Source: Clostridia bacterium
GTDB lineage: Bacteria; Bacillota; Clostridia; Oscillospirales; Acutalibacteraceae
Direction of reading: 5' to 3'
Assembly: GCA_017409265.1 (NCBI GenBank)
Contig: JAFQSY010000034.1
Coordinates: forward strand, 1 to 37,175
DNA: 37,175 bases
Of this stretch, positions 30,681-34,440 are shown piece by piece (the stretch's first letter is position 1; every line of letters starts with the position of its first letter). A program made the position numbers and the translations under genes. The notes beneath the pieces were generated by a model, which was not told the origin of the DNA, did not search any database, and saw only the letters and a list, made by a program, of their open reading frames with translations.

Positions 30681-30770
30681 CTTAATATGTGCAAGTTCAC
30701 TAAAATAATTTTGCTTGTTTAAGTTTAACTGTTAAGGCTGAATAATTTCAAAGATTCATTTCTTTGTTGG

Positions 30771-30806
30771 TTTTGCACAAAACACATGCTTTGCTTTTGT
30801 GCAAAA
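30771..30806. repeat. 12-bp perfect inverted repeat directly upstream of a promoter
   Basis: TTTTGCACAAAA (30771-30782) and TTTTGTGCAAAA (30795-30806), 12-base spacer. It ends four bases before the -35 box at 30811, a position suited to an operator or activator site. Confidence 0.7.
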
Positions 30807-30810
30807 TTAC

Positions 30811-30838
30811 TTGACTTTTTCACGAAATGGTGTATAAT
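30811..30838 (+). promoter_or_regulatory. Promoter of the small ORF / structured RNA locus
   Basis: TTGACT (30811-30816), a 16-base spacer and TATAAT (30833-30838). The transcript would start near 30845, giving a short leader before ATG 30872. Confidence 0.75.
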
Positions 30839-30871
30839 AAAGCCACAACGAAAAGAAAGGAATGAATGTTA

Positions 30872-31006
30872 ATGAATTTCGAAAACACAACTTACAAAGC
30901 TGAAAGAAAGCTCATCGAGGAAATCGGCAAGGAGAAGAAGTTTCTTACATTCAAAAAACTCTGCAAAATCTTTGAGTTGAACGCTCTTCTCACCAGCCAC
31001 AACTAA
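30872..31006 (+). CDS. Small basic protein of 44 residues, unknown
   Basis: Starts MNFENTTYKAERK and ends LLTSHN. The middle is a lysine-rich, probably helical stretch (EEIGKEKKFLTFKKLCKIFEL). An in-frame ATG at 30866 would add two residues. AAAGAAAGG (30852-30860) is the SD, 11 bases before 30872 or 5 before 30866. Two-fold codons almost all end in C (TTC, AAC, TAC, ATC, CAC, TGC) and AAG/GAG are common, as in highly expressed genes, which supports real coding. It could be a leader peptide or toxin-like peptide, or simply part of a longer ncRNA. I do not recognise it. The stop codon lies in the loop of a small AGCCA/TGGCT hairpin. Confidence 0.6.
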   Translation: MNFENTTYKAERKLIEEIGKEKKFLTFKKLCKIFELNALLTSHN

Positions 31007-31014
31007 TGGCTGAA

Positions 31015-31115
31015 GAGGGCTGATTCCCTCAACCCCGTGAAATATCATCCCCAACGGGTGATTTCATATATTCTGACGCAGGAGCCAAGCCTGCGCAGAG
31101 CTTCAGAAAATCAGC
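31015..31115 (+). ncRNA. Candidate structured RNA / riboswitch-like element upstream of ymxH
   Basis: GCTGATT (31019-31025) is complementary to AATCAGC (31109-31115). This 7-bp helix either closes a three-way junction, or forms a pseudoknot with the loop of the GAGGG/CCCTC hairpin (31015-31019 with 31026-31030). Between the arms lie two long hairpins. One is 31037-31067 (GTGAAAT..ATTTCAT outer, CATCC..GGGTG inner). The other is 31071-31108 (TTCTGA..TCAGAA outer, CGCAGG..CCTGCG inner). CCCGT (31034-31038) can also pair with ACGGG (31054-31058), giving mutually exclusive folds. A terminator follows at once. It does not match the riboswitch classes I can recall. Confidence 0.55.
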
Positions 31116-31157
31116 ACAGACCGAAAAAGGTTAAATCCTTCTTCGGTCTGTTTTTTA
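31116..31157 (+). terminator. Intrinsic terminator after the structured element
   Basis: CAGACCGAA and TTCGGTCTG form a 9-bp outer stem (31117-31125, 31142-31150) with an inner AAGG/CCTT, followed by six T. It ends 37 bases before ymxH, which has no other clear promoter, so it could act as an attenuator. Confidence 0.9.
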
Positions 31158-31193
31158 TTTATGCTCATATAGTAAAGTAAAGGGGGAAAAAAG

Positions 31194-31463
31194 ATGAATT
31201 GCTGTATTACCGAGCTTCGGTGCAAGGAAGTTATAAACAAATCCAATGGATGCCGACTGGGACTTGTGAGTGATGTTGAAGTCGATTCCTGCTGCGGGAG
31301 AATAACTGCTCTTATAATTTACGGCAGACCGAAATATTGGGGAATTTGCGGGAAAAGAGAGAGAATCCGAATCTGCTGGGAGGATATAGAAGTTATCGGC
31401 AGTGATACAATCCTTGTCTGCAAAGCTCAATGCGAGGATAACGGCAGACGCAGAAACAGATGA
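31194..31463 (+). CDS. ymxH: YlmC/YmxH family PRC-barrel sporulation protein
   Basis: 89 residues. A PRC-barrel fold is indicated by ELRCKEVINKSNGCRLGLVSDVEVD and GRITALIIYG, then RIRICWEDIEVIGSDTILV, the family pattern. YlmC/YmxH proteins are conserved in endospore formers; their function is poorly known. SD AGGGGG precedes ATG 31194. The C-terminus is rich in Arg. The gene is sandwiched between terminators at 31116-31157 and 31464-31500. Expression may therefore depend on read-through of the upstream structured RNA. Confidence 0.85.
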   Translation: MNCCITELRCKEVINKSNGCRLGLVSDVEVDSCCGRITALIIYGRPKYWGICGKRERIRICWEDIEVIGSDTILVCKAQCEDNGRRRNR

Positions 31464-34152: not shown

Positions 34153-34440
34153 ATGGATAATAAAATAAAAGACAAGAATGTAGATTTTCTTTTTGAGGCG
34201 ATTCTGAATCTTCAGACTCTTGAAGAGTGCTATGATTTTTTTGAGGACCTCTGTACTGTTCCCGAAATAAAAGCAATCTCGCAGAGAATCGTTGTTGCAA
34301 AAATGCTCCGCGATAAAAAAGTTTACAGCGATATTGTCGCCGAAACAGGTGCAAGTACCGCAACCATCAGCAGAGTCAACCGTTCTCTTCAGTATGGCTG
34401 CAACGGCTATGAAGAGATATTCAAGAGGATGGAAAAATAA
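34153..34440 (+). CDS. YerC/YecD family TrpR-like regulator
   Basis: 95 residues, full length. The single TrpR-like helical domain includes TLEECYDFFEDLCTVPEIKAISQRI, then MLRDKKVYSDIVAETGASTATISRVNRSLQYG, a helix-turn-helix with the STATISRVNR recognition helix. By analogy with TrpR it is a small dimeric DNA-binding repressor, but the ligand and target of YerC proteins are not known to me. SD AAGGAAGG precedes ATG. The methyltransferase ATG follows its stop directly, so the genes are coupled. Confidence 0.92.
   Translation: MDNKIKDKNVDFLFEAILNLQTLEECYDFFEDLCTVPEIKAISQRIVVAKMLRDKKVYSDIVAETGASTATISRVNRSLQYGCNGYEEIFKRMEK

Follow-up and report, generated by a model that had tools for sequence, protein, structure and literature searches.

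A conserved small-protein gene with a putative TTGTGCA operator and a covarying 3′ hairpin module upstream of ymxH in Clostridia

The stretch of DNA analysed in this work (37,175 nucleotides, hereafter the window) contains, upstream of the gene ymxH, a promoter and a short open reading frame (ORF), followed by a series of hairpins that ends in an intrinsic terminator. The question raised by this locus is whether its folded RNA controls ymxH, in the manner of a riboswitch aptamer followed by an expression platform as proposed in a preliminary description, or whether it belongs to a gene of its own. We lean toward the latter answer and regard the region 30764–31152 as, on balance, a stand-alone transcription unit, viz. 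a regulated small-protein mRNA with a functional folded 3′ UTR. All of the features described below, from the upstream palindrome to ymxH, are on the plus strand.

The promoter and the 44-codon ORF that had been noted earlier are both present as stated. The sigma-A type promoter (TTGACT-16-TATAAT, 30811–30838), identified in a consensus scan, has 11 of 12 consensus matches, with the −35 at 30811–30816, the −10 at 30833–30838, and a spacer of 16 nt. The ORF (30872–31006) is preceded by a Shine–Dalgarno (SD)-like AAAGGA at 30856–30861, and an in-frame ATG at 30866 provides an alternative start. A DNA search of 40 genomes, including the window's own, gave matches in 10 of them. In the alignment of relatives, the promoter region and the ORF are conserved most, and the part stressed in the preliminary description is variable in sequence; 15 columns are invariant among 10 members of the genus. 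The dN/dS ratio was 0.06–0.37 in 10 of the 14 pairs compared and 0.71 and 1.23 in two further pairs, the remaining two (L030/L031 and L053/L060) being void as they were mis-anchored; in a recount of L030/L031, five codons and one residue differ over the first 39. In most of the pairs tested, this comparison indicates selection at the protein level. Conserved as a protein and provided with an SD sequence, the ORF has the properties of a small-protein gene and is presumably translated.

An HMM profile of the protein (A1) matched 35 of 45 genomes of the genus at E ≤ 0.01, and 26 of 300 genomes of the family. One of the latter matches (L064), a frame of 485 aa which by eye is a kinase, was judged false and left out of all counts on the 52 loci referred to below. 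A wider profile (A2), built after adding members that were found by the promoter alone, matched 43 of the 300 family genomes at E ≤ 0.001, representing 18 of 135 genera. When A2 was applied to 394 genomes of the order, 11 matches were obtained, nine from the same family (f1) and two from f3. The two matches from f3 lie within frames of 313 and 341 aa and were judged to be due to chance, and the small-protein family was not convincingly found outside its taxonomic family. Two A2 matches each were seen in four genomes (G301, G319, G348, and G068), and in two loci (L049 and L051) the small ORF is directly followed by another copy that has diverged from it.

With the analyst's choice of start, the proteins are 39–47 residues long over the 52 loci, and 51 residues in the longest of the loci found by the promoter pattern (see below). 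The 52 proteins have a median pI of 8.2, two prolines in all and no membrane segment, and the highest mean hydropathy over 19 residues among them is 1.11. The protein from the window has two amphipathic stretches (residues 3–19 and 24–36, approximately), and the members of this family are probably charged, two-helix proteins. No match to a known protein family at curated cut-offs was found for the three members scanned against Pfam, NCBIfam, and PHROGs; NCBIfam and PHROGs gave no match for them, and the sole match in Pfam was sub-threshold (DUF7381, E 0.054). A search of PDB with profile A1 found no relative, and a literature search with the peptide string found no match. An origin from phages or plasmids was also considered and rejected, the window protein giving two records at E = 10 against phages and none against plasmids.

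The region upstream of the promoter contains a putative operator. A palindrome (half-sites 1 and 2, TTGTTGG-TTT-TGCACAA, 30764–30780) corresponds to the family consensus TTGTGCA-NNN-TGCACAA, and its three mismatches out of 14 in the window are all in half-site 1. A third half-site (TTGTGCA, 30797–30803), recognized by a pattern count in family genomes, is located 6 nt before CTTGAC. The layout thus consists of three half-sites in fixed geometry: the palindrome, 16 nt, and then the single half-site 7 nt before the −35. The distance from the palindrome to half-site 3 is 16 nt in 51 of the 52 loci and 15 nt in the other one. The best palindrome has at most three mismatches of 14 in 48 of the 52 loci, in each of them 16 nt from half-site 3, and a recognizable palindrome is absent in four. 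Comparison of the loci shows a promoter geometry that is fixed across them. The pattern of half-site plus −35 was found at 57 sites in 54 of the 300 family genomes, versus five sites for the reversed control; of 30 such loci that were read, 19 (the window included) head a member ORF and 11 head none. A search of 341 genomes of the class for the full geometry with at most two mismatches returned the window and two other places, which were rejected, both being without a TATAAT-like −10 in place and neither being member-like.

The palindrome alone was found 33 times, in 27 of the 150 family genomes searched, versus once for the control. Of 27 palindrome loci that were read, six (L118, L120, L121, L131, L134, and L136) head genes with G5, DUF348 or 3D domains, and in the genome of the window, a palindrome with two mismatches also heads a gene of the same G5/DUF348/3D type (L205, C61). 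The palindrome lies 19–20 nt before the −35 of these seven G5/3D-type (YabE-like) genes. These G5/3D/DUF348 genes are likely to be part of the regulon of a TTGTGCA-binding regulator, the link being drawn from the shared motif. Two other palindrome loci, L130 and L139, represent the locus of the small protein, and several further sites are without an evident promoter. In the window's own genome, there are 24 sites with at most two mismatches versus three for the control. Of the 15 near-palindromes from this genome that were read, 14 lie in frames of at least 90 codons, and a wider TTGTGCA regulon in this genome was rejected on this count; two of these 14, L194 and L205, look promoter-proximal by eye. 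A c-di-AMP riboswitch ahead of the G5/3D genes, which was a guess from their leader, was not confirmed by Rfam in 10 loci. In L132 the gene headed by the palindrome codes for a carbohydrate phosphorylase and in L137 for a type IV leader peptidase, and a TTGTGCA dyad in L066 precedes a gene that by eye looks like one for SmpB. The window itself encodes at 34153–34440 a TrpR-related regulator of the YerC/YecD family (TIGR02531, E 1.9e-40), which is followed by a gene for a methyltransferase.

In most loci of the genus, the stop codon is followed by a hairpin (H2), the linker AUAUA, a second hairpin (H3), and then the terminator. In the window H2, with an AUC..GAU core, extends from 31037 to 31067, the linker from 31066 to 31070, and H3 from 31071 to 31100; the last three bases of the linker are invariant in all 30 sequences aligned and the whole of it is nearly so. 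Both hairpins had been proposed previously, the second of them as 31071–31108, and both are supported by covariation, H3 within the shorter limits. A further hairpin, H1 (GAGGG-CCCTC, 31015–31030), comes from folding only. RNAalifold on the alignment (A3) found only H3, and therefore H2 rests on columns that were first chosen manually, on the basis of the window row, and subsequently counted. The count was made on 10 pairs in 30 sequences of the genus with 500 shuffles, rows with shifted stems being scored as gaps or unpaired. The pairs were formed in 90.9% of cells versus 70.8% when shuffled, 56 cells were doubly changed versus 17.6, and the covariation score was 0.488 versus 0.213, none of these values being reached by any of the 500 shuffles; slid versions scored at most 0.099. 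A weaker measure is how many pairs have a double change: nine were observed versus 6.8 when shuffled, a value reached by 25 of the 500.

A motif of the hairpin-AUAUA type, the pattern for which was written after the data were seen, was present in 43 of the 52 loci versus a mean of 3.5 (maximum 8) in shuffled sequences. With a covariance model, matches at E ≤ 0.1 were obtained in 33 of the 45 genomes of the genus. The hits at E ≤ 0.01 number 32 and are all located just 3′ of the ORF; 30 of them are the model's own training sequences, and those in G053 and G011 are independent. No stand-alone copy of the module was seen at E ≤ 0.01 in the 45 genomes. Five weaker hits (E 0.01–0.1) are off the ORF, one of which, in G044, falls within a long coding frame and was attributed to chance, and the other four are on contigs other than that of the ORF. 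The covariation and the adjacency to the ORF, both established by comparison, show a conserved RNA structure outside the ORF, on what would be the same transcript. The module may nonetheless be dispensable: the motif was missed in nine of the 52 loci, the terminator directly follows the stop codon in L042, and, among the genus genomes, no module hit accompanied the ORF match in G017, G045, and G055 or the ORF in G012 and G043. The loops are not conserved in the alignment. In L030 and L031 the loop of H2 is CUCCUCC, which is anti-Shine-Dalgarno-like.

The covarying structure H2-AUAUA-H3 is different from the helix on which the preliminary description had centred. The pairing of GCTGATT (31019–31025), most of which forms the loop CTGATT of H1, with AATCAGC (31109–31115) is present in the window, but in nine sequences, viz. 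the window and eight close relatives, it exhibits no covariation and is 60.0% paired versus 59.9% when shuffled. The alternative pairing CCCGT/ACGGG can form fully in two of the same nine sequences. Therefore, a three-way junction or pseudoknot involving these elements is not conserved. The earlier impression that the RNA looks undescribed agrees with our results, as Rfam 15 contains no family that matches there at the gathering threshold; the matches at a low threshold are chance-like, one being to a microRNA model, on the terminator stem in both orientations, and the other to a coronavirus UTR (E 2.4). Literature searches on RNA motifs found nothing. The RNA may be called undescribed in the sense that it was not found in the libraries and literature examined, and catalogues of small proteins may hold the ORF. 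What stands of the claim of a new RNA is that it is structured, outside Rfam and with real compensatory change; the part that made it a riboswitch with an expression platform for ymxH does not, as the structure is 3′ of a conserved ORF and has its own terminator. The other option offered, a small RNA whose 5′ part codes, comes close to our result, the structure being tied to an ORF that is conserved as a protein.

The terminator is present at about 31116–31152 as a U-tailed hairpin, as had been described. A simple scan reports its stem on the minus strand only, the plus-strand stem having one internal mismatch in the fold. The ymxH gene (31194–31463), coding for a YlmC/YmxH sporulation protein (TIGR02888, E 1.4e-19), is a neighbour that lies outside the unit. 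It was found downstream within about 1.5 kb in 11 of the 52 loci, all from one genus (L012–L022), or in 11 of the 17 closest loci, and by this comparison it is an occasional neighbour of the small-protein gene. Besides ymxH, no ORF of at least 80 residues within about 1.5 kb is common to more than three loci across genera, so far as the 52 loci are concerned, which indicates that there is no fixed neighbour gene across the family. The earlier view that ymxH has no other clear promoter is at odds with an element CATAT(A/G) which, counting by eye, is 15–16 nt past GGTCTG in eight of the 11 linked loci; in the window it is represented by CATATAGT (31166–31173), a candidate −10 located 15 nt after GGTCTG. 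The element was not seen in L012, L013, and L015, and it lies a long way from ymxH in L017. It is plausibly the own promoter of ymxH, and it resembles a sporulation sigma-E promoter. The stem sequence CGGTCT is constant in the 11 ymxH-linked loci, and the terminators of L023–L028 differ; in the window (31117–31173), the stem CAGACCG/CGGTCTG is of the kind kept with ymxH and not in these six near loci without it. As the stem is kept only where ymxH follows, it may double as the −35 region of ymxH.

We infer from the promoter and the terminator that the region between them is transcribed as one RNA. Folding is significant beyond chance, with z scores of −7.3 for 30980–31155 and −5.1 for 30841–31160, no shuffle being as stable in either case, though both stretches include the terminator, which contributes to these scores. 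The most likely mechanism would be that a signal triggers a burst of synthesis of a small regulatory protein, with the 3′ UTR determining the output. Controlled by a putative TTGTGCA-binding regulator, a strong sigma-A promoter would give rise to an mRNA of about 300 nt, coding for a soluble, charged, probably two-helix protein of 44 residues and ending in a folded 3′ UTR composed of H2-AUAUA-H3 and then the terminator. The same regulator could switch the small-protein gene together with the G5/3D cell-wall proteins, which have the palindrome in common with it. The small protein might be an adaptor or regulator that works by binding a partner. The 3′ module might set the stability of the mRNA or present AUAUA to a partner, and the transcript may therefore be dual-function.

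Two alternatives overlap with this interpretation and differ from it in what the 3′ module does. A plain small-protein mRNA, in which the hairpins only guard against 3′ decay or serve as a tandem terminator, is a serious contender to which we give slightly less than an even chance: a hairpin followed by UUU(N)AUAUA resembles a weak terminator and some members have a terminator only (L042), but AUAUA and the arrangement of H2 and H3 show more conservation than a generic hairpin would require. A good deal less probable is a dual-function small RNA of the SR1 kind, with the module base-pairing to mRNAs in trans via AUAUA or a loop, and with a protein whose role is separate or linked. A unit of about 300 nt with its own promoter and terminator, a covarying module with a near-invariant AUAUA adjoining the ORF, and the CUCCUCC loops of L030 and L031 are consistent with such a role; the lack of conservation of the loops, the shortness of AUAUA for a seed, and the nine of 52 loci in which the module was missed are against it. 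A bolder proposal, which we rate as a long shot, is that the peptide, two-helix and mostly basic, binds to AUAUA, the near-invariant linker in its own 3′ UTR, as a peptide-sized RNA regulator that also binds other AUAUA-bearing transcripts and whose synthesis is triggered by the regulator of G5/3D cell-wall remodelling. If true, RNA and peptide would form a regulatory pair of a new class in gut Clostridia.

The cis-regulatory RNA (riboswitch or attenuator) for ymxH, with which this inquiry opened, accounts for the succession of hairpins, terminator, and ymxH in the window and 10 relatives, but we now consider it highly improbable and have rejected it. An aptamer should be linked to the gene that follows it, and ymxH was not found downstream in 41 of the 52 loci; additionally, a conserved ORF precedes the structure, the helix 31019–31025/31109–31115 is not conserved, and the candidate promoter of ymxH lies past the terminator in eight of 11 loci. 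We give as little credence to a type I toxin-antitoxin locus, which a short ORF with a folded mRNA and the tandem second copy in L049 and L051 could bring to mind, but the 52 proteins have no membrane segment and their hydropathy stays low, and a simple consensus scan of the window detected no promoter-like site on the minus strand opposite the ORF or the UTR.

The stand-alone small-protein unit is of broader interest in a number of regards. Genes of this kind escape annotation because they are short, and the present one occurs in 35 of 45 genomes of the genus and, at the family level, in 18 of the 135 genera sampled, with a very regular operator layout and a covarying RNA tail; its protein has no match in Pfam, NCBIfam, PHROGs, or PDB and its RNA tail none in Rfam. 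The locus also illustrates how the folding of a 3′ UTR may lead to its being taken for a riboswitch that acts on the gene after it. The 15 named contigs that carry a relative are all labelled as Clostridia, Oscillospiraceae, or Ruminococcaceae MAGs, gut samples from goat, sheep, water buffalo, deer, yak, or horse being named for 12 of them; the genome of the window is 2.50 Mb in 91 contigs and 80% complete. Naming the TTGTGCA-binding regulator would connect a small protein with the control of the cell wall (G5/3D) in gut Clostridia that are largely uncultured, and the unit is compact enough for transfer as a whole into a laboratory host.

Among known systems, SR1P of Bacillus subtilis has about 40 residues, and SR1 has its own promoter and terminator. 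The present unit is like SR1/SR1P, as that system is described (PMC8501984; PMC8152036), in that a small protein is encoded on a small RNA, whereas here the conserved RNA module follows the ORF on its 3′ side, and any base pairing is putative. With a riboswitch aptamer and terminator platform the unit shares conserved hairpins followed by an intrinsic terminator, but the structure is 3′ of a conserved ORF, the downstream gene is not conserved, and no Rfam family applies. The GMSC catalogue of microbiome small proteins (PMC11364881) and work on smORFs (PMC13376575) concern unannotated, conserved ORFs of fewer than 50 codons in gut bacteria, as is the case here; such catalogues could already hold this ORF, without its operator or RNA. 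Lastly, the YabE-like G5/3D genes resemble the small-protein gene in having a TTGTGCA palindrome upstream of a sigma-A type promoter, but there the palindrome is 19–20 nt from the −35, whereas here it is 30 nt away and is accompanied by a third half-site.
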